From NCBI GenBank assembly GCA_029204225.1, contig CM055093.1, forward strand, positions 30,639,777-30,703,776: a DNA stretch of 64,000 nt, in the 5' to 3' direction. The DNA comes from Diphasiastrum complanatum. Its lineage: Eukaryota > Streptophyta > Lycopodiopsida > Lycopodiales > Lycopodiaceae. Numbering within the stretch: the first letter of the stretch is position 1; every line of letters begins with the position of its first letter. The notes under the pieces are model-generated. The model worked only from the letters and a program-made list of their open reading frames with translations. It was not told the DNA's origin and made no database searches. Position numbers and translations under genes: made by a program. Below are positions 5,405 through 36,960 of this stretch, piece after piece.

Positions 5405-5760
5405 GCTCTGATACCATGTTAGAAATCCATAAATCATAATATGGATAAACAGAGTAGGATTCGAACCCAGGACCTCCCTCATACCGGATGGGATGCTCTA
5501 CCACTGAGCTATCCGCCCTGTTTGATAGTTCTCTCTAGAGTGTGGATTGATATTCCAACAGCCCCCCCTCAAGCCACACTTGGTTGGGGTCCTAGCTGTC
5601 ACCTGCCCCACAACTTGGGCCACCTAACCATGGCTTTGACACCATGAACTGTTAGGTCTAACTTGGCTCTGATACCATGTATAAAGACCACAAAGGGACA
5701 ACCCCTAAGATGAGGATAGGAGAACACAACCTAGATCTAGTCCACAAGCCATTCGTTAGT
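5405..5760 (-). mobile_element. TRIM-like small LTR retroelement unit, tandem arrangement
   Basis: Read on the minus strand: an LTR end (...TTTATACA) at 5678 is followed directly by TGGTATCAGAGCC, the initiator-Met-tRNA primer site. Next come about 115 bp of internal DNA ending in a purine tract (TTGAGGGGGGGC, 5561-5572), then a short LTR of 144 bp (5417-5560) that starts TGTTGGAA and ends TTCTAACA. That LTR is followed immediately by a second TGGTATCAGAGC (5405-5416). An LTR with a purine tract upstream and a PBS downstream is expected only in tandem copies sharing an LTR. No coding capacity fits the internal region, as in TRIM elements. The upstream LTR is cut by a gypsy fragment near 5760, so full LTR identity cannot be shown. 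Confidence 0.55.
5440..5527 (-). other. tRNA-like sequence with pol III A and B boxes inside the small LTR
   Basis: On the minus strand TAGCTCAGTGGTAGAGC (5511-5495) is a perfect tRNA A box and GGTTCGAATCC (5467-5457) a perfect B box, 27 bp apart. The flanks AAACAGGG and CTCTGTTT can pair as an 8-bp closing stem with one wobble. The anticodon arm is imperfect (U33 replaced, mismatches in the stem) and the T stem is poor, so a working tRNA gene is unlikely. It resembles the tRNA-derived head of a SINE captured in an LTR. Confidence 0.6.
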
Positions 5761-5762
5761 TA

Positions 5763-6668
5763 CAGTCTTTCCTAGGCTTTTGTAAGTTCTACCGACGATT
5801 CGTTATGAACTATTCCAGAGTAGCTGCTCCTTTAACGAATCAATTACAGAATAACAACACTGTGGTTTGCTGGAATGCTGAGGCTCAACATAGTTTTGAC
5901 AACTTGAAGGAGGCTGTTGCGACAGCTCCAGTACTCAAGATTGTTGATACCTAGAAACCTTTCGACCTAGAGACGGATGCTAGCGTGGGTGCAGTAAACC
6001 TTTCGACCTAGAGACGGATGCTAGCGTGGGTGCAGTATTGAGTCAGGAAGGTAGACCTGTAGCCTTTGAAAGTAAGAAATTGATGCCTGCACAATAGAAA
6101 TATCCCACACATGAGCAAGAGCTGTATGCGATTATACATGCACTCAAGGTGTGGCGATATTATCTGTATGGCGCCAAATTTTATGTGTATACTGACCATC
6201 ATACTTTGAGGTACTTTTGCACTCAGCCGTATTGGAAAAGCCGCTAGGCTCGGTGGGCCGAGCTGATGCAAGAATTTCATTTGGAAATTTGCTTCCAAAG
6301 GGGGAAGGAAAATGTGGTTGCTCTTGGTGGAAGGTCTAGTACCTCTAGAGGAGAAATAGACCATAAGTTATGGTCCAGAAAGAGTCCTATATCGGAGGAA
6401 GTGAGGAATTGTCTCCTCCAGGAGTATCTAGTGGCTTGTAAAGGGCATCTTTTATCGGATGCTACTTGGGAGACTCGCCAGGGCGTTGCGGAAGTCTTGC
6501 CCAGAGTTTATCATCGAGGATCGATGACTCGTCAGAAGAGGGAAGGATTGTTAGACGCGAGTCGTGTTCTAGCACAATTCCGCGATTGGGTGGATCATTC
6601 CTCACACCGGCCATCTGAGTTTAGAGAGCTCCTGGAGATGGGAGTGCAACATAGTTGGTGCATTGGTT
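5763..6668 (+). pseudogene. Ty3/gypsy pol fragment (RT end, RNase H, start of integrase region)
   Basis: Plus-strand translation shows the Ty3/gypsy RT-to-RNase H transition. FLGFCKFYRRFVMNYS lies near 5770-5815, then a connection region, then RNase H signatures ETDASVGAV (near 5970 and again near 6010), YPTHEQELYAIIHALKVWRYYL (near 6100) and YTDHHTLRYF (near 6190). Stops interrupt it near 5953, 6097 and 6247. A 41-bp direct duplication (5955-5995 and 5996-6036) repeats the RNase H catalytic-Asp region. The fragment ends around 6600, where an opposite-strand gypsy fragment starts. It is dead. Confidence 0.8.
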
Positions 6669-8500
6669 AGTCCAAACAACATAACCAAAAATTCATAATG
6701 ACCAAGACAAGTTTGGAAGGTCGTCTTTGTCTCGAATTTGTATTTGATGATACCCAGTTTTGAGATCTTACTTAAAAAGGTTGCACCTTGCCATGCATCC
6801 AGCAGATCGTCACTCCCGGGGATTAGATACTTGTGCTTTATAGCGATTTTATTTGATTTTCTATAATCAATGCACCTCCTAAAACTACCATCCTTTTGTT
6901 TAACAAGCAAAGTAGGAGAGGCAAAGGGTGAATAACTACGACAAACATACCCCAACTTGAGGTACTCCTCCAACATCCTCCTCATTTGCTCCTCCTCTGC
7001 AGGCTCATCCTATAAGGAGGCCTACATACCCGACTCGCCCCTGGGATGAGCTCAATCTAGGCGACATTCCCTTTTAGCATGATGCATGTGCCATAGAAGA
7101 TGCAAATATAGATGAAGCTGCTTGTGGATTATTACTAATCAAAACTAGAATCAACATTCACTTAACATAACCATAAATATTGCACGTCCATCTTCTTTAT
7201 TTGCATAGAGTTAATAAGAGGTGAATAGATGGTGTTTGCCCCTTTAAGACATGAGACATATCCTCATGTCTTAACTTATACACATGCGTAAGAAAATCCA
7301 TGCCGAGTTGTTTACTTGCATGTGATTGCTTGCCTAAAACTATGTCAAACTTGGCTAATATGGTTATATGAAAGTGTAACTTCTCAGAATATGTCCAAAT
7401 AAAGATGGCTGAGAGACTCTCTTGTCTCAAGCTTTTGTGCCCTTACCATCTGGCATCTCAACTATATATTGGTAATTTGAAGGCATATTAGTCGAGTGAA
7501 GTTTCTTTAGTACATGTTATAACATCATGCGAGGAACTGGTGTCGAATGAGATGATAACATCACGACCTTCCAGCTTGTCCCTCATGCGTATTAGCTTTT
7601 GATATGGAAACTGATAGCCTTCACGTGCCTTGGTGGATAGAAAACAAACTGGTTTCTTTCGAACTATCTTCCACACCAAAATAGTCATGACACGCTTGGT
7701 GTCATCATTGTCATCGTCAATGAGTAAATCATCCGAATTTTCCTCATCCTTGTTCTCACCTTGATGCTACTGTAAAACATGGAGAGCTTCTTGCCTGTTT
7801 GTTGAGGACGGTCTTTGAAAAGATTCTTGCCAAGAGACAAAAAGCATAATCCGTCTTTCTTGGCCTTATCTCTTTACTTAAGAATCAGGGGAGACCTCTC
7901 GTATGCTCAAGGAGTCATAGGAGATGTTGACTTGCGCATCTGCTACATCTAGATAGAATCCTTCTGTGGGAAGTCCAGGGTCCTTTTGACTAGCTTGGCT
8001 TGACTTTTGAGAGCCGCTATTTTGGGGCCAATTCTCACCCCCAAATTCAGCCATGTTGTGCACATTACCTTTGAAGTTGAGTGTTGTTGCAATTGCATCT
8101 TCTAGCCTCTTGCAGCTCTCACGGAGAACATGAGGCCTCAACTTTTCATGAAGGCAAAAAGTAAACATGTGTACCACAAGCCACTTTGCAATCTCCTCTT
8201 TTGATAAGCACCTCTTTATACCTAGTAGCATATTCTTGCACATTGTACTACCTTTGACGATACAAAAACCATGCAACAAACAAGTAGGGTCAATATCTTT
8301 ATCATGATAATGTGCTAGTTAGATAGGTCGTGCAAAGGAAGATAAGAATTGTGATGGATATGGTGGAGGATACTAAGATGATGATGTATAATCAGTCGTC
8401 ACAGATAGAGCATCATTCATAAATCTGTCATGGTCTTCTCCATACTATCCATGCGAGCTTGCATGGATGGAGTACCAACAGGGTGAACTTGCCCTAGTTG
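6602..8500 (-). pseudogene. Ty3/gypsy gag-protease-RT fragment, reverse orientation
   Basis: Read from 8500 down: a gag start with MQARMDSMEK (near 8490), a gag domain with a basic, Gln/Ser-rich end (8279-7878), a degraded protease region (about 7690-7200) and an RT N-terminal half (6985-6602). The RT part shows SPFASPTLLVKQKDGSFR, CIDYRKSNK and GHYEFLVMLFGLTNAPTM, diagnostic of Ty3/gypsy RT. The YxDD active site lies beyond the break at 6602, where a plus-strand gypsy fragment abuts. Multiple stops and shifts separate the parts, so it is inactive. Confidence 0.75.
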
Positions 8501-21708: not shown

Positions 21709-22600
21709 ATGTCTTCAATGGGTTCATCCTTGTTGGAATCAAGTGAAAGATTGACCACTTCAAACTATTAAATTTGGAAAATGAGGATGGAGTCCATCTT
21801 GATCCTTCAAGACGTGATGGACATAGTTCTTGGCCTTGAAGAAGAACCAGAAGTTCTTCAAGAGGTTCAAAAATACAAAAAGAGAGCTAGGATGGCTCTC
21901 CACTACATTAAGATGAATGTCTCTAATGAGATATTGAGGGAGATAGGTACTTGTACAACAACCAAAGAAGCTTGGGATTGTCTCAAGACTATCTATGAGG
22001 CTAAGAATACCTCTAGGCTTCTCACTCTTAGGAATCAAATCTTTCAAAGTACCCAAAAGAGTGATGAGAGTGCATCTAGTTATGTTTTGAGAGTAAAAGA
22101 TATTCATAGAGAACTTGCTTGTATTGGTGATTCCATCAATCAAAATGAGCTAGTTCAAGTCATTCTCAATGGCTTGAAAAGTGAATTTGATAACCTTGTC
22201 CAATCCTATGCCATTAAGAGGAGCTACCAAGTTTGGAGGCTCTCCAAAGTGTACTAATTTCGGAAGAATCAAGACAAGAGTACAAGCTCTTGAGGATGGA
22301 CAAGCTTTCTCTCTCACAATGATGGCAAAGCTCTCTTTGCCAAGGATAAGCACAAAGGGAGGAGCAAGAACCAACATCAACAATCCTCAAGCAAGGACAA
22401 AGTCAAATCCAAAGACAAAGATGAGGAGGAAGATAGTTCCTCTAATGCTTCATCATCCAAGCTCAAGAAGAAAAAGATCAAGTGCTTTTATTGTGGCAAG
22501 AAAGGTCATTATGCCACCAATTGCTTCAAGAAGAAGAATCAACTCAAGCAAGCCAACATTACCAATGAGAAGGAAGACACTATTGCAAGTGATGGAGAGA
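21709..22600 (+). pseudogene. Ty1/copia gag
   Basis: The likely start is ATG at 21709, but an in-frame TAA at 21769 follows residue 20. The frame is then open from 21772 to 22254 through the UBN2-type gag domain (WKMRMESILILQDVMDIV; ARMALHYIKMNVSNEILREI; DIHRELACIGDSI). A frame disturbance at about 22200-22310 separates this from a Lys/Ser-rich tail and the zinc knuckle CFYCGKKGHYATNC (near 22485), which is again in the original frame. Gag binds element RNA and builds the particle. This copy cannot make an intact Gag. Confidence 0.8.
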
Positions 22601-23572
22601 GATCTCTTATGGTCTCTAGTTTCTCATCTACTCCTTTCAAGAAGGACGGCCTATGGTATATTGAAAGTGGAGCCTCTTCACATATGTGTAGCTCCAAGGA
22701 CTCTTTCTCTTCTATTGCACCTTATGATGGAGTCAAGAAATCAATATACACTGCAAATGATTTTGAATGTCCTATTGAAGGCATAGGGAACATTCCCTTG
22801 AAGCTTGCATCCTCTAAAGTTCTTTCTCTCTCTAAAGTTCTTTATGTACCTAAGCTTACCAAGAATCTTATTAGTGTTGGCCAATTGCTTGATAATGGCC
22901 TTGATGTAAAATTCAATGTTGATACTTGCACTATCAAGAAGAATGATGAGATACTTGCATTAGGATCTAGATCTAGTGGCATCTATAAACTAGATCCAAA
23001 TGAGTATGTGAATGCTTGTAATGTTGCTCTTGTGAACAAGCTCTCTATGGAGGAATTATGGCATAGGAGGTTGGGACATCCCAACTACAAATCCATGCTC
23101 TCTATGATCAAAGAAGCCAAAGCTATTGGCTTGCCAAAGTCACTCTCCAAGAAGATCAAGCCTTGTGAGGCTTGTGCTTTGCTAAATCTCACAAAAAGCC
23201 ATGTACAAGATCTTCTATCAAAAGCAAGCATCCTTTGGAGTTAATCCACTCGGATGTGCATTTCTCATCAACTACAAGCAAGGGAGGAGCCACTTGTTTT
23301 GTTACTTTCATTGATGATTAAACAAGATTCACTTGGATATATCTTCTTGCTTCTAAATCTATGGTGTTTGATCATTTTCTTATTTTCAAAGCTTATGTAG
23401 AGAAGCAATTCTCATTCAAGATTAAAGCTCTTAGAAGTGATGGAGGTGGTGAATATATCTCCAATAAATTTCAAGATTTTTGTGAGCTTGACGACATTAA
23501 AAGAGAGCTTTCTTGAGACTACTCTCCATCTCAAAATGGAGTGGCCGAGAGAAAGAATAGATCTCTATGTGA
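22600..23572 (+). pseudogene. Ty1/copia protease and integrase N-terminal part
   Basis: The protease region starts GLWYIESGASSHMC, where ESGAS replaces the usual DSGAS/DTGAT, so the catalytic Asp appears lost. The integrase zinc-finger region follows (LWHRRLGHPNYKSM, then CEACA). A shift near 23185 breaks the frame. The integrase core continues in another frame with LIHSDVHF, FVTFIDD, then a stop, and RSDGGGEYISNKFQDFC. A tandem 74-bp duplication at 23520-23664 disrupts the core again. Dead. Confidence 0.8.
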
Positions 23573-23664
23573 ATGTGCAAAATCTATGAGGCCTACTCTC
23601 CATCTCAAAATGGAGTGGCCGAGAGAAAGAATAGATCTCTATGTGAATGTGCAAAATCTATGAG
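23520..23664 (+). repeat. 74-bp tandem duplication inside copia integrase
   Basis: TACTCTCCATCTCAAAATGG and the following 50 bases occur at 23520 and again at 23594. The length is not a multiple of three, so it shifts the integrase frame; the second copy restores the reading frame into the long pol ORF. Confidence 0.9.
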
Positions 23665-25075
23665 AATTGAGGCATCTTTGCCCAAAGATTTTTGGGGAGA
23701 AGCCATTAATTGTGCAAATTATCTTTGCAATAGGCTCCCACGTATAGCTCTTGGAGGAAAGTCACCATATGAAATCTTATTTTTAAAGAAGCCTAAGGTT
23801 GATCACCTTAGAGTTTTTGGATGCTTATGCTTTGTCCATATTCCCTTGGAAACAAGGAAGAAGGAAGATCCTAGTGCATGCAAAGGGATCATGGTTGGAT
23901 ACTCATCCACCAAGAAGGCCTATAAAGTCTTTATACTCTCTACTTCTCAAGTTATTGAAAGTAGAGATGTTGTCTTTCATGAAGATCAACACTCATCTTT
24001 TGAAGAGGCCAAGATCAAGAAATCTATGGATGCATCATCAATTATTGATTTTGAAGACAATCATGATGTGATGGGGTCGAGATTTGAAGAAGACTCTCCT
24101 CGGATTTTCTCACCAAGAAGATCCATGAGAGATAGATCCGAGCCTAAGAGGCTCTCATATGTTGACAAAGGCAAACAAGTGGATCTTGATTCCACTAATT
24201 ATGTTTTTTATGTCTCTCATGAAGAGCCAAAGAATGTACAAGAGGCACTCAATACCAAGGAGTGGTATGATGCCATGAAGCAAGAGTATGATGCATTGAT
24301 CACCAACAATACTTGGGAGCTTGTGGATCCTCCATCCAACAAGCATGTGATTGGTTGCAAGTGGGTATTTCGGATCAAGTTCAATCATGATGGCACCATC
24401 AACAAGCATAAAGCAAGATTATGTGCCAAAGGATTTGCTCAAATCCATGGTCTTGATTATGAGGAGACCTTTGCACCCGTTGCAAAGATGGTGACAATAA
24501 GAATTCTTATTTCTCTTGCTTGTTTTTTCAAGTGGAAGGTGTTCCAATTAGATGTATCCAATGCTTTTCTAAATGGTTATCTTGAGGAGGAGATCTATAT
24601 GGAACAACCTCAAGGATTCATCAAGGATGAGTCCAAAGTGTGCTTGCTCTTCAAAAGTCTTTATGGACTCAAACAAGCACCAAGATCATGGTATTCAAGA
24701 CTTAATTCTTTTCTTATCTCACTAGGATTTACTCTTAGTGACTATGATCCTTCGATGTATCTAAAGTTTGTTGATAGCAATATTGTCATTCTTCTAATTT
24801 ATGTTGATGACATTATTCTTTGTGGAAGTTGTATCAAGCTAGTTGATGAAACCAAGCTAGCACTTGGATGTGAGTTTAAAATGCAAGATCTAGGAGAGAT
24901 GCATTACATCCTAGGCCTAGAAATTGATTTTTATGAAAATCATGTCTTTATATGCCAACCTAGATATGCTCACTCTATGTTGAAAAAATTCCATATGGAG
25001 AATTCTAAGAGCATAGATACTCCAATGGAGCAAATTGTAAAAGATCTTAATAAAGGTGATGAAAGATCCTTTGAG
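23594..25075 (+). pseudogene. Ty1/copia pol: integrase C-terminal part and complete RT core
   Basis: This is the in-frame continuation for about 500 codons. It shows SPSQNGVAERKNRSLCE and DFWGEAINCANYLCNRLP (integrase end), the linker, then RT with NTWELVDPPSNKHVIGCKWV, YEETFAPVAKMVTIRIL, QLDVSNAFLNGYLEEEIY, SLYGLKQAPRSWY, LLIYVDDIIL and LGEMHYILGLEI. All catalytic RT Asp residues (QLD and YVDD) are present. Homology stops at about 25085 (EITLFRSL), before RNase H. Lacking RNase H, intact integrase and a 3' LTR, it is a truncated element, although the RT part looks fairly young. Confidence 0.85.
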
Positions 25076-25089
25076 GAAATCACACTTTT

Positions 25090-25505
25090 TAGGAGTCTTC
25101 TTGCAGTCCCTTACAATCTTCTGGACCGCAAGAAGGCTCCTTGTTGTCCCTTGGGGTGGGATTCTTATGGTTCATTGGGTTGGGTACCCTAAACCCAAAA
25201 CCTTCATCGTGAGGGACCACAAAGAGCCTTCTTGCGGTGGTTTGGACCACAAGGGACTACGAGGAGGATCCTTGCGGTCCGTTGCGGTTGCGTAAGGGAC
25301 CGCAAGAAGCCTCCTTGCGATGGGCTGGACCACAAAAAGGGTCCTTGCAGTGCTTTGGACCACTTCAAGGGATCACAAGGAGGCTCCTTCGGTCTAGCCC
25401 ATCGCAGGGGACCGCAAGAAGGCTCCTTGCAGTTTCCTGTAGTGGCTTAACCGCATGGAACCACAAGGAGCCTTCTTGTGGTTTCTTGCATTCATAGCCC
25501 TCTTG
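25090..25505. repeat. Palindromic minisatellite
   Basis: At least eight degenerate units of a core like ACCGCAAGAAGGCTCCTTGC or its reverse complement, separated by 15-30 bp, with GGACCACAAGG variants. Each core is nearly self-complementary (GCAAGRAG...CTCCTTGC), so single strands could form hairpins. It replaces the RNase H end and 3' LTR of the copia element and is richer in GC than its surroundings. Confidence 0.75.
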
Positions 25506-29244: not shown

Positions 29245-29992
29245 TCACCAATCATGCCCACAGGGAATAAAGCAATCCTTAAAATGGTGGACTCAATTTG
29301 CATCTTTGAAATGATCTCACATCTGACAAATTTCTATATGATCTTGGTGGCACTGCAAACACGAAGATTCTTCTTGATGCAGATGGCTGTCCCAGGTGCT
29401 TCAAACACGAAGATTCTTCTTGATGCAGATGGCTGTCCCAGGTGCTTCAGCATGAAAGCAATTGCTAGCTTCTCACTGTATTCACAAAGATTTCTCCTTC
29501 CCTCCCCTCATCCTCCACATCATGCAGAAGGAATGTTAGATCAGGCATATGCCTTGTCTCCTTACTCAACCCCAGCAATCTATATAGCTCAACCCAAATC
29601 TCCTTGCTTTGTCAATGAGTTGCATTGTTTAGAACAAAATCATTCATCTGATTGTCAGCTTCAATCCAGCTGCATCAGACTTTTTTTTCACACCTTTATT
29701 TCCTTATCTGTGGTAACTCATCCATCCTGTCGGCTGCTGCGTAGATGTTTGATAGCAACACATAAGCTGCAGCATTTTCTGGTTCCAACTTCATAAGACA
29801 ATCAAAGGCTCGTCTTCCTATTTCCACATGGCCATGGTTTCTAGCAGCACCAAGCAAGGTTCTCCAAACCACAGCATCTGGCTGCATTGGCATTTTGTTA
29901 ATTAAATCCTCAGCGTCAGCCAGGAACCCTGAGCGGCCCAAAAGATCAACCATGCAGGCATAGTGATCCATGGTGGGTAGGGACACCATGCT
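29245..29992 (-). pseudogene. Decayed E/E+/DYW C-terminus of the PPR gene
   Basis: This continues the PPR array after a one-base shift at about 29990. One frame (29990-29696) holds the last PPR/E motif (MDHYACMVDLLGRSG, AAYVLLSNIYAAADRMDEL) and stops at IRK. Further on, in changing frames, come an E+ remnant (IEADNQMNDFVLNNATH, SKEIWVELYRLLGLS, HDVEDEGREGE) and a DYW-domain remnant (SEKLAIAF with Tyr for the Zn-binding His, CIKKNLRVC, SATKII without the usual NDCH, and a final CGHDW stop at 29245). A 46-bp tandem duplication (29356-29447) repeats the CIKKNLRV segment. The Zn-binding and catalytic residues of the DYW cytidine deaminase are thus partly gone, so C-to-U editing activity from this tail is not expected. 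Confidence 0.8.
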
Positions 29993-32109
29993 CTTTACAC
30001 ATGGAATCAAAGAGGTGACGACCTTCATCTACTAAACCACAATGGCTGCATGCAGAGAGAATACTAACATACGTGACATCATTAGGCTTCGTGCCTTCCC
30101 TTTGCATTTGCTCCAAAAGTGTGATAGCCTCCTTGCCAAGCCCTTGCTGTGCATATCCCGCTAACATCGCATTCCAAGACACCACATCCCGTTCATATAT
30201 GTTATTGAACACCTGACGTGCATGCTCCATGCTCCCACATTTTGCGTACATGTTAACAAGGGAACTGTTCACAGTCACATTCAGCTCAAACCCACTTTTT
30301 ATGATGTGGGCATGGAGCTGCTTGCCCTGTTCCAGGGCTGCAATGCTAGCACATGCTTTTAGGAGAAGAATATATGTGACATCATCTGGCTTCACACCTT
30401 CCTGTTTCATTTGCTCATACAGAGCCAGAGCCGGCTTGCCAAGCCCTAGATGTGCATATCCTGCAATCATTGCATTCCACGAAACCACGTCTCGCTCTCT
30501 CGTTTTGTTGAACACCCAACGAGCATGCTCTAGGCACCCACACTTCGCATACATGTCAACAAGGGTGTTCCCTATAACCACATCTAACTGGTAGCCACTT
30601 TTGATGATCTCGGAATGAAGCTGCTGACCCTGTTCCAGAGCTGCAACAGTGGCACATGCTTTGAGGAGACTAACATATGTGACCTTGTCTGGCTGCACAT
30701 CTTCCTGTTTCATTTGTTCATACAGAGCAAGGGCCTCCCTTCCAAGTCCATGCTGTGTGTATCCTGCAATCATCCCATTCCATGACACCAGATCTCGCTT
30801 GTTCATGTTGTTGAATACTTCACGCGCCTCCTCTATGCAACCACATCTCGCATACATGTCAACAAGGGCACTACCCAAAATTACATCTGACTCAAAGCCA
30901 CTCTTGATGATGTGGGAATGGAGCTGCTTGCCCTTTTCCAGGGCTGCAATGCTGGCACATGCTTTTAAGAGACCAACAAAAGTGACATCATCTGTTCTCA
31001 TGCCTTCCTGTTTCATTTGCTCATAAAGAGCAAGGGCCTCCTTTCCAAGCCCCTGCTGTGCATATCCTGCAATCATCGCATTCCATGACACCACATCTCG
31101 TTCATTCATCTCATTAAAAATTTCTCGTGCATCCTCTATGCACCCCCATTTCACATATCCGGCAATCATTGAATTCCATGAAACCACATCTCGTTTACTC
31201 ATTTTGTCGAACACCTCACGTGCACGTTGTATGCACCCGCATTTTGCATACATGTCAAGAAGGGTGTTCCGTACAATCACATCTGACTCAAAGCCACTTC
31301 TGATGATGTCGAAATGAAGCTGCTTGCCCCATTCCAGGGCTGCAATGCTGGTACATGCTTTTAGGAGAATAACATATGTGACATTGTCTGGATGCACACC
31401 TTCCTGTGTCATTTGCTCATACAGAGCAAGGGCCTCTTTTACAAGCCCATTCTGCCCATATCCTGCAATCATTGCACTCCATGAAACCACATCTCGTTCG
31501 CTCATTTTGTCGAATACCTGACGTGCGTGCTCTATGCAACCGCATTTTGCATACATGTGAACAAGGGTGTTCCCTATAACCACATCTGACTCAAAGCCAC
31601 TTGTAATGATGTCGGAGTGAAGCTGTTTGCCCTGTTCCAGAGCTGCCACCCTTGCACAAGCATTTAGGACAACAACAAACGCAACCTTGTCTGGTACTAT
31701 GCCTGCTGTCTGTTGCATTTGCTGAAATAATTTGATAGCCTCCTCACATTGTCCATTATTGGCATATGCTGAGATGATAGCAGTCCAGGAGAATATATTG
31801 TGTTCAGTCATCGTGTCAAATACTTTGCGGGCATCCAATACACTACCGCACTTGGCGTACATGTCAACAAGGGATTTTCCTAGGAAAATGTCTGACTCAA
31901 GTCCGCTTTGGACTATGAGGGCATGCACTCGATTGCCCTCCGTCAAGTCTTTCCTTCTGGCACACGCCTTCAAAAGGCAAATATAGGCATTGATTGGAGC
32001 TTGAATATTTCGCTGGACCATAAGCTCCACCATATCCACTGCCTCTTTCAATTGTCCTTCCTGACAGAGCTTGTTCACATTATCGATATTGCAAAAGGAG
32101 TTGGGCAAC
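29946..32109 (-). CDS. PLS-class PPR array (large 3' exon of an OSB-PPR gene)
   Basis: An unbroken 720-codon frame without an ATG start; it begins right after a strong acceptor (CTGAATCTTGCAG, 32110). It encodes about six and a half P-L-S triplets of about 101 residues, highly alike (VVSWNAMIAGY, GKEALALYEQMKQEG, DVTYVLLLKACA-type, GKQLHSHIIKSGFESDV, LVDMYAKCGCIEEAREVF). One triplet is compressed near 31080-31230, where two S/P motifs follow each other (CGCIQRAREVF, then KWGCIEDAREIF). PLS-PPR proteins bind organelle RNA one base per repeat, usually to direct editing. The frame shifts near 29990 and ends with LCLHG, just before the E domain. Whether a truncated protein is made is unknown; the uninterrupted array suggests recent decay or a base-call error. 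Confidence 0.85.
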
Positions 32110-32231
32110 CTGCAAGATTCAGATCATAATTTTTGAAAAAAAATGAAAAAGCATCAAATTTGAAAGACCAGCAACAAAGTGTATTCTGAGCCCTGAGGGC
32201 TCCACAGTCCACACTGGGATTAAAACTATAC

Positions 32232-34511
32232 CATCCTCCAAATCCACCGCCAGATTGTATTTGACCGAATGCCATAGGTGCCATCTTTTCCTTAACCCAA
32301 GAAGGGTTCAGCCAACCTTCAATCCATAGGCCCTCATGTGTACTCTTATGTCTAAAGTCTGGGTACTTAGGACTTTTCTACACAAAAGTACACAGATCAG
32401 CAGATACAGCTTCAATTGGAGAAACTGACGACAATAACCACTCAGCCTCATATACCAAAGCAGAGTCAACAAAAAAATCCAGTGGGCAACATCAAAATTG
32501 ATAAGCTAAAGCAACTGAACCCTGAAATAAATCCAAAACCATCCTCACAGCATCACTTTACAGGTAATCTTCGATGGTCGTTAAGATGGATAGCCATACC
32601 TTGATAAATCTGTTGTCCCACCACTGCGATGGATCTGAGAAAAACTCTTGCCACAGCTGTTCCGTTCTAACGGCTCTGCCTACATGCTCTCAACCAGTAT
32701 ACATCAGAACTTTGGCAATTATGAGTGAGAAGGTCGATGTGCCTATAAACATCTCTGCAGATTCAACGAGATCTCTTCTTGGCCAAGGCAATGCTGGTGA
32801 AAAAAGGAAATTGAACCATACCGGAGACTTCAGGTGTTGGAAAAAAGGATTCTCGCTGTTCTTGATATTGTACCATGGCAGCTAGCCTGGCATGTACCCA
32901 TGGAGGATTAGACCTATTGCCAATCCATAGGGCCTTCTTTGAAATCTTATGTTTGAAGTCAGGAAATCGCGGATTTCTCTGAAAATAAATACAAAGCATG
33001 CAACCTGAGCAGCCATCAATTGAAGCAAATCTACTAGAATGATCAAAAATCGTGGAATGGAGTACACTGCAATTATCAAAGCTTCACAAGGTACTAGAAT
33101 GAGCACAGCTGTTAAAATAAGGTAGATTGCTATGATCAAAGCAAGGACGGACCCCTTGAACCAGCAATTCCAATAGATGCTAACAAAAAGGCCTATTGAT
33201 CTATGACACCATTCTAAGCAACCAAAGCCCTAGCCCCAGTAAAAGTACGATGGGGTGTGCGCAATGGATTGAAAGAGAAATTTTCAATCCTCCTCAGATC
33301 CAAAAACGTTTGAACAAATGAATGCCACAGGGTACTGGCAGTTTCACCTTATCATTCCTAGTGTCCCACCATTGTGAAGGATCTGAGAAAAACTCCTCCC
33401 AAAGTTCTGTTGTTCTCGATCCTTGGCCTGCATGACAGAAACACAGAGAGTAAGGACTAAGAGAATCAGACTATTCTGACAGGTTGGGCTGGGTGAGTGC
33501 CAGTAGCTCAAAGTGATTGAGAAATGTAAGTGCAATACAGGTGTGACCAAAGATTTCTGCTTCCCCGCTGCATTCAATTGACGACGAAGAAGAAGATGAT
33601 GATGATGATTGCTGTGGATTAAGAGTAGCAAGCTTTGCTCGTAGCCAAGAGGGGCTAAACCTATCAGCAACCCATAATGCCTTCTTAGTAGTTTTATGTT
33701 CGAAGTCCGGAGCTTCAGGATTTCCCTGTGAAAAACGGGCATCAAGCCAAGCTAAGCTAGTGAGAGCCACGACCTAAAGCATCTTTCCAAACTGAACATC
33801 ACTCCATACAACGTGTAAGTAATAAAACCTGCACTTCTTGCCGAACCCACAACTGGGCAAAAGCAAAACTACATAATAGAACTTATATCACAAAGTAAAG
33901 AGCCAATTCATTTAGTATCTCACCTTGTCAAACCTTCTGTCCCACCATTGCGAAGGATCCGAGAAAAACTGTTGCCAGAGACGCTCTACTCTGGCTACTG
34001 AACCTGCAAGCCCATCCCATCCCATCCCAGCAATAGCCAACCATCAATCATCACATCAAAGCAACAGACTAGCACAACACACAGGCACATCAGTAAACCA
34101 CCACACCTTAATAGCTAACTCTAAAACACAAGAAGAAGAAGAAGAAGAAGAAGAAGAAAATCAAAAGCAGAGCACAGCTAAACCCTCACCTTCTTCCTTC
34201 GAGGTAATTACTATAGAAATTTCTGCTGCCATGGGTGAATGACGACTAGATGAAGATGAAGATAAAGAAGGAAAAGGAGTACAATTGAGGGAAGTAGAAG
34301 ATGAGGAAAAAAGGGTGAATTCATTTGGGATCATGAGGGTGATTCTGATTCTGATCGTTAAGGGGGAGCACAGAAGGATTGAAGATCGAGGAAGAGCAGG
34401 AGAATTATCAGAATAGAATAAGAATTGATGATAATGATTTGGTTTGCAACAAAGGCCTGCTGCTGCTGCTGCCATGCTCATGCTTGTGCTTTGTGCTTTG
34501 TTTAGGATCAC
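32232..34511 (-). CDS. OSB-like N-terminal part: targeting peptide plus three PDF-motif modules
   Basis: Seven exons with consistent GT/AG sites and phases: 34511-34190, 34003-33924, 33725-33539, 33427-33348, 32978-32822, 32679-32600 and 32377-32232 (351 codons with the first base of the next exon). Exon 1 is Ser/Ala-rich with Arg and few acids, like a plastid or mitochondrial presequence. Three modules follow, each made of LW(Q/E)EFFSDPSQWWD...K joined to NPR(F/Y)PDFKHK..KKALWI...NPPWV, the PDF motif of OSB organellar ssDNA-binding proteins. Exons 2, 4 and 6 are each exactly 80 nt. The OB-fold of OSB proteins is not visible. The last exon can splice at GGATG/GTATAG (32232) across a 122-nt intron with a T-rich tract and CTGAATC branch-like site into the PPR exon, in phase. 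Unspliced, the frame would run on to a stop at 32075. Confidence 0.75.
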
Positions 34512-35696: not shown

Positions 35697-36960
35697 CTAA
35701 CTAATCTTAATTGTAACCTTGTTCATTAATTTTTTATAGTCCATGCAAAACCTTATAGTCCCATCCTTCTTGGCAACCAGAATCACTGGTGATGCCCAAG
35801 GAGACTTACTAGGTTTAACCCACCCTTTCTCTAGATACTCACTTAATTGCCTTTGTACCTTAGCCTCTTCCAATGCACTCATCCTATAAGGGTGTTGTGC
35901 AATTGGAATTGAACCAGGCATAAGGTTAATCTTGTGATCTACAGACCTTTCAGGTGGTAAAAAACCTACAAAAAGGTCTAGAATTCATGCCTAAGTGCTT
36001 CAAATTTAGGAGTGTTCTCACTAGGTATGTTCATGACATTAAGTTTACGAATCTCATCATTGCAATAAATTAAGTCTTTGTGAAAACATAAATAGACTTT
36101 ATACTCTATGTTCTTTATTAAATAATTAAGTTCATGCTTAGAGTAAGGTTTAATACGATGTACACTTAAACTAACACTAATCTTTATTAAAGAACAATCA
36201 TGCATAAAAGTTAAAGATTTTTCAACAAAATCAATTTTCAATGAATGATTATTACCATAATGTCTTGTTTCCCAAGAACGACATCCACATTTGCTGAACC
36301 AATAACACGGAATTCTAGTTTTTCAGCATAATCATGTGTGTGCAATGGTACATTAGGAACCACATAATCCAAGGGTTCGGAATTACACCCAGATGCCACA
36401 CAATACTTCTTCTCACTTCTTTTGAGGGGGGGATTTAGCATCTGCACCAAATTTGCATTTATAAAATTATGTGTGGATCCCGTGTCAAAAAGTTCATTAA
36501 CAAGATGACCTCCAATTTTACCCTTATTAATGCAAATTAAGTCATTAGGTCCATAAAGCACTGAACTAAAAAAACAAAAAAAAATATCCATCTCATTACT
36601 TTGAGATATAATACCTGAGGACGTTGAGACTTTGTTTTTTGACCATCTCCATTGCACTTGAAGCAAAGATTCTTCTTTCGAGCTTCCGCTAGGTCCTTCT
36701 TGCCACCTTGATGATTTTTAGGGTGGTGTTTGGGTTTCTTAGAATTAGGATTGGAAGATGCCTCATTGGTAACTTCCTTATCCTTCCTTTTAAGTTGAAA
36801 ACCCTTCTTTTCTCATTATGATGACTATTATGTGGCTTAGGAATATCATCATAAAACTTTGCAACCCTACTATCATCTTCTAAGGTGTTGGGATGGTTCA
36901 TTCGAACATCCACTTGATTGTCCTTAGGTAAACCATCAATGAACATGAGCATATGTATCT
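35697..36960 (-). pseudogene. Ty3/gypsy gag-protease-RT fragment, reverse orientation
   Basis: From high to low coordinates: a gag end with degraded zinc knuckle (CFKCNGDGQ, near 36660), a protease frame with the active site LFDTGSTHNFINANLVQML (36666-36238), and the start of RT with [20 protein letters not shown] and [20 protein letters not shown], then MDYKKL (35921-35697). It ends before the RT catalytic motif. The three parts are in different frames. Confidence 0.8.

Follow-up and report, generated by a model that had tools for sequence, protein, structure and literature searches.

Within a 64,000-nucleotide stretch of chromosome 2 of the club-moss Diphasiastrum complanatum (C2:30639777-30703776, called the window throughout, positions being counted from its first letter), the evidence supports a single gene on the minus strand which, as read from the sequence, would join PDF modules to a PLS-type array of pentatricopeptide repeats (PPR) via a spliced junction. 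An in-phase spliced join of this kind had been put forward in a preliminary description of this DNA and is borne out by the annotated protein of the locus, P0081 (O6H91_02G056300), which uses the same junction, by the 18 gap-free paralogous loci, all of which keep it, and by PDF+PPR proteins from other land plants. The domain combination had been called unusual; the gene is one member of a large family, with at least 99 PDF-PPR sites in the assembly.

Gene anatomy and the spliced junction

The donor 32232|GTATAG and the acceptor CAG|32109 join in phase 2, and P0081 crosses this junction letter for letter, being identical to the gene model over modules 2-3, over the junction and down to the same stop. 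The public model of P0081 has its start in exon 3, in a different reading frame, and lacks exon 1 together with the first PDF module. P0078 and P0079, which are longer relatives, carry a leader and three PDF modules, matching the rebuilt model. In the gap-free paralogous loci, the acceptor CAG is conserved throughout (18/18) and the donor GT is found at the aligned place in 17/18, that of L023 being displaced by one base; as the junction is kept in all of them, it is more than a chance agreement of phase. The statement that the PPR exon has no ATG of its own holds for the part ahead of the first repeat, but in-frame ATGs follow later, the first at 32033 (codon 26).

Upstream of the PPR exon, seven exons were rebuilt, all with GT..AG borders and with the phases 1,0,1,0,1,0,2 in order. 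Each exon pair (2+3, 4+5 and 6+7) encodes one PDF module, the WWD half by exons 2, 4 and 6 and the PDFKHK..LW half by exons 3, 5 and 7. Exon borders, phases and modules agree with the seven exons and three PDF modules first claimed from the letters, except that the donor of exon 3 lies more likely 9 nt further on, at 33539|GTATTG instead of 33548, as favoured by the full-length relative P0078. The product of exon 1 is predicted to target an organelle; residues 1-60 of the joined protein contain 2 D/E, 4 K/R and 8 S. The end of the open reading frame at 29946, previously read as the end of the gene, is really a frameshift, and E and DYW homology runs on in other frames to 29248. The parts of the locus are as follows.

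34190..34481, minus strand: exon 1, serine-rich leader, predicted organelle-targeting peptide (open frame and donor; by-eye alignment with the N-terminus of P0078)
33924..34003, minus strand: exon 2, 80 nt, first half of PDF module 1
33539..33725, minus strand: exon 3, second half of PDF module 1 (donor 33539, alternatively 33548)
33348..33427, minus strand: exon 4, 80 nt, first half of PDF module 2
32822..32978, minus strand: exon 5, second half of PDF module 2
32600..32679, minus strand: exon 6, 80 nt, first half of PDF module 3
32232..32377, minus strand: exon 7, second half of PDF module 3 and linker
32110..32231, minus strand: junction intron between the PDF part and the PPR exon, 122 nt, phase 2 (conserved in paralogous loci; same join in P0081)
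29946..32109, minus strand: PPR exon, PLS array open up to the frameshift stop (Pfam PPR_2, 4.3e-134; tandem period 303 nt)
29696..29995, minus strand: final PPR motif plus E motif, in a different frame (Pfam E_motif, 1.4e-10; alignment to P0079)
29248..29695, minus strand: remnant of E+/DYW, decayed and interrupted by stops and changes of frame (alignment to P0079)
29356..29449, minus strand: perfect 46-nt tandem duplication within the DYW remnant, apparently in the window and in its copy on C8 alike, to judge by their alignment

A family of fusion genes in D. complanatum

Twenty stretches were fetched around strong matches to the PPR part in the D. complanatum genome, the presence of PDF modules not being a criterion, and two were dropped (L009, run of N; L025, N across the PDF part), which left the 18 gap-free loci. 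Exons 6 and 7, a short intron and then the PPR exon are found in all 18, which, with the near-identical pairs L010/L011 and L013/L014, amount to about 16 distinct loci; the same order is present in two further loci, L029 and L030. A PPR retrocopy that landed downstream of a PDF gene in the window only was ruled out, because all 18 loci have the junction intron and a PDF part split over several exons.

When the best 150 of 933 exon-7-like candidates were set against the best 150 of 2690 candidate PPR starts, 99 of the 150 PDF-exon sites were followed, on their own strand, by a PPR start at a distance of 170-286 nt (median 200), and among these two lists no PDF site and PPR start were paired on opposite strands within 1.5 kb. 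Since 23 of the 150 PDF sites are on small contigs and several rows are paired with equal scores, the 99 are sites in the assembly, not genes; since both lists hold the best 150, further sites are likely. In 19 of the 150 PDF-site rows exon 7 lies within one open frame of at least 500 aa. Loss of the intron in such loci was ruled out for the two that were read, L029 and L030, where the junction intron is present and is itself open and in frame. A retained intron would in these two still yield a PDF-PPR protein.

At the protein level, a search by PDF region and joined-protein length gave 187 proteins, and at least 107 of the 120 best are from D. complanatum. The PDF modules all stand ahead of the repeats in 109 of 110 D. 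complanatum proteins, the exception being P0085, which may be two genes annotated as one. The window gene shares the features of this family, with the PDF part directly ahead of the PPR array and the junction colinear with its relatives.

The PDF modules and their relation to OSB proteins

A profile built from 20 PDF modules, the window gene's own three included, detects three modules in the joined protein at 91-99 bits, the first from residue 105, after the serine-rich leader. Three modules fall within the one to three PDF motifs expected of an OSB protein, and the pattern W..WWD.R..K..PDFKHK..LW is common to both. The two differ in that the window gene has a PPR array after the PDF modules and no detected OB fold, and in that the PDF modules of the fusions cluster apart from those of OSB proteins (bootstrap 83). 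In the 389-aa PDF part no Pfam family, and with it no SSB/OB fold, was found at E 0.1, while P0031 as a positive control gives SSB at 3.6e-18; this negative is weakened by some OSB-like proteins, P0009 and P0044, for which Pfam is likewise blank. The earlier label 'OSB-like' is therefore apt for the PDF modules only, and, since no OB fold was found, the predicted protein is not classed as an OSB protein. Because the PDF part has no Pfam match, the fusions are catalogued as PPR or hypothetical proteins.

Models of PDF modules consist of a helix, short strands and a helix, with block means of pLDDT of 67-97 in the modules. For the P0012 model, searched as a whole, those Foldseek and VIA-align matches that come with a range fall in the OB part, and a PDB sequence search with an OSB alignment returned SSB/OB-type chains, the matched positions 66-179 being the OB part. 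Nine tandem PDF modules each, with no PPR listed, occur in P0084 of the dinoflagellate Effrenium voratum and in P0086, so PDF reaches beyond land plants and OSB-type proteins.

The PPR array and its broken end

The repeats of the window gene are recognized by Pfam as a PPR array, and tandem P-L-S motifs are indicated by the Pfam PPR matches, the 303-nt period and the P and S motifs listed; the array is open over 708 codons. Alignment of P0079, which has three PDF modules, PPR, E and DYW, reaches position 29248 of the window through a frameshift near 29983, stops and the perfect 46-nt duplication. As P0079 aligns through the broken end, the window gene descends from a PDF-PLS-E-DYW protein, the deaminase end of which has since decayed. 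Its E motif lies in another frame (29696-29995) and is not intact in frame, and of the DYW deaminase domain only a remnant is left.

Intact DYW deaminase domains are found by Pfam in P0079, P0017 and P0051, and the relatives with an intact DYW come from a lycophyte, Sphagnum and a liverwort. Within D. complanatum, only two of 16 copies (the window and 15 of the 18 loci) have an intact DYW end, namely L013 and L017; DYW or a close variant stands at the end of 38 of the 110 listed fusion proteins, some of which are isoforms of one gene. Some of the stops in E/DYW ends may be assembly errors.

One further copy touches this question. L009 (G000:C8:26914000-26923500), which adjoins a run of N, matches window positions 32329-27627 at 98.9%. 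Compared with the window, it has 30 gaps and 20 substitutions in the 2164 nt of the PPR exon and 4 gaps and 5 substitutions in the 2319 nt downstream, the differences being largely short indels and mostly within the repeats; between 29900 and 29301 the two are identical. The C8 copy lacks the base at 29983, so that an assembly error is possible in either copy, but it has an extra base at 29901, which together with many other indels means that it leaves the frame undecided. That it is an independent paralog was rejected on the match of 98.9%, the run of N and the concentration of indels in repeats; it looks like a poorly polished assembly duplicate and was kept out of the selection estimates.

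Selection on the family and on the window copy

The family, including PDF module 3, is under purifying selection. Over the 61 codons of this module, the ratio of nonsynonymous to synonymous rates (dN/dS) of the window copy against the 18 paralogs is 0.12-0.32, and over all pairs the median is 0.28 and the maximum 0.82 (169 usable of 171 pairs). For the first 120 PPR codons the window copy gives 0.23-0.55 (median 0.32, 18 comparisons), and over the complete array, with 15 of the 18 paralogs as comparators, 0.30-0.44; 0.32 is obtained against L010 and 0.25-0.32 for four pairs that do not involve the window. Codon changes unique to the window copy are 27 nonsynonymous, 22 synonymous and 2 unclear, for which, as for the whole-array ratios, L011, L014 and L018 were excluded. 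In PDF modules 1-3 these changes are 17 nonsynonymous versus 19 synonymous, one of the four comparators for module 1 (L022) being out of frame. Evidence for recent constraint on the window copy itself is mixed.

Spread and age of the fusion

The same domain order had been suggested as worth looking for in other plants, and PDF+PPR proteins are indeed named, among the matches listed, from several species of Sphagnum, Calypogeia fissa, Ceratopteris richardii and Adiantum capillus-veneris. No seed-plant PDF+PPR protein is named among these matches, which come from word-based searches or are the best rows.

An unrooted tree was built from 99 modules of chosen proteins, among them 18 of the 110 D. 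complanatum proteins and the window protein; P0195 was placed with the ferns by likeness. It separates 70 fusion modules from 29 OSB and algal modules at an ultrafast bootstrap of 83, and 23 modules that are bryophyte-type or without a species name cluster with four D. complanatum modules at 97. A constraint that holds bryophyte-type and D. complanatum modules as two groups was rejected (approximately unbiased test, p 0.0016, a value that may be too small as the competing tree came from a fast search). A signature in the linker and first repeat, PG..Q...FSWN or near, is shared by P0168, P0172 and P0179 with Sphagnum and Calypogeia, while the fourth grouped D. complanatum protein, P0173, differs at some of these positions. 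On these sequences, the fusion was probably already in place before bryophytes and lycophytes diverged. Ferns may have acquired a fusion separately, since their linkers differ and their position in the tree is weak (bootstrap 65).

Possible function and alternative readings

As some relatives keep an intact C-terminal DYW deaminase, the family likely comprises RNA-editing factors of chloroplasts or mitochondria. According to a study on PPR56, a PPR-DYW protein and C-to-U editing factor, PPR-DYW proteins are organelle editing factors (PMC10482289). With PLS-class PPR proteins that carry E and DYW the window gene shares PLS triplets, an E motif and a DYW remnant, intact in relatives; it differs from them in the broken DYW of this copy, and the fusion family as a whole in having one to four PDF modules at the N-terminus, set on a linker.

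There are E-type PPR editing factors that use a DYW partner in trans, and an array with an E motif but no working deaminase would need such a partner as well; the differences are that the E part of the window copy is out of frame in the assembly and that PDF modules are present. The reading preferred here, to which a probability of about 0.55 is given, is that of a PDF-PPR fusion gene spliced to one organelle-targeted PDF-PLS-E recognition factor. In this predicted protein the PPR array would pick the RNA site, the three PDF modules would likely add hold on single-stranded nucleic acid and a DYW partner would be supplied in trans, its own deaminase end being broken. In the P0081 model (mean pLDDT 88.4) two compact PDF modules are followed by a loose linker (residues 150-168 below 50) and a PPR solenoid; the modules would accordingly be pictured as flexible appendages ahead of the array, for which an extra grip fits better than a part in the RNA-reading groove.

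Several points weigh against this recognition factor. The frame of the window copy breaks near 29983 and stops follow in the E/DYW end, its own changes in the first 120 PPR codons (10 nonsynonymous versus 3 synonymous) look relaxed, the evidence for the joined product at this locus is the annotation of P0081, and the binding published for PDF is to single-stranded DNA.

The first two of these points, with the 46-nt duplication in E/DYW, are also what favours the main rival, a real family of which the window copy is a decaying pseudogene without protein function. It is a serious contender, though the recognition factor is preferred, as 708 array codons are open and seven exons intact, the array ratio against L010 is similar to those of the four other pairs, and the window-only changes in the PDF modules show no such excess of nonsynonymous ones. 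Loss of the DYW end does not by itself make the copy exceptional, since an intact one is absent in 14 of 16 copies.

A broader hypothesis, doubtful at present, would place the fusions in an ancient land-plant class of editing factors. At the nucleoid, PDF modules from a lineage that binds single-stranded DNA would hold a PPR-DYW protein on nascent transcripts or R-loops and so couple editing to transcription or DNA upkeep; in club-mosses the class would have spread to about 100 sites, and repeated loss of the deaminase would have left PDF-PLS-E proteins that borrow a DYW partner.

It is improbable that the protein acts on DNA instead, with PDF binding single-stranded organelle DNA and the PPR array directing the protein to regions that are transcribed or form R-loops, its role being maintenance of the genome rather than editing. 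In favour, PDF modules occur in OSB proteins, and the PDF motif of AtOSB1 is reported as sufficient for single-stranded DNA binding (PMC6963530); the deaminase end, moreover, is gone in many copies. This reading is opposed by the intact DYW of lycophyte, Sphagnum and liverwort relatives, which points to editing, and by the OB fold that Pfam did not find in the PDF part.

Two neighbouring genes, a PDF gene ending by read-through and a separate PPR gene, were rejected as highly implausible: the frame of exon 7 does run open through the junction intron to a stop at 32075, so that a transcript retaining the intron would encode a short protein with PDF modules only, but the junction is conserved in 18/18 loci and used in the annotated join of P0081, PDF+PPR proteins exist in other plants and no ATG precedes the first repeat.

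In the open-access literature no recognizable description of PDF modules fused to PPR arrays was found, subscription papers being mostly outside the search; the words 'pentatricopeptide', 'OSB' and 'PDF motif' occur together in PMC6963530, as far as its text was available, but for separate proteins. PPR editing factors are usually pictured as repeats plus deaminase. An N-terminal nucleic-acid-binding module that accompanies them in a lycophyte, where it is under purifying selection, and also in ferns, peat mosses and a liverwort would be an added part of the editing machinery and would connect DNA upkeep (OSB) with RNA editing (PPR), organelle systems that have been studied separately.

Other features of the window

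Open frames at 21772-25189, 35697-36717 and 6605-7009 resemble, by eye, pieces of retrotransposon polyproteins. At 23519-23664 there is a perfect tandem duplication of 74 nt, and a tRNA-Thr (GGT) gene occupies 5446-5518 on the minus strand.

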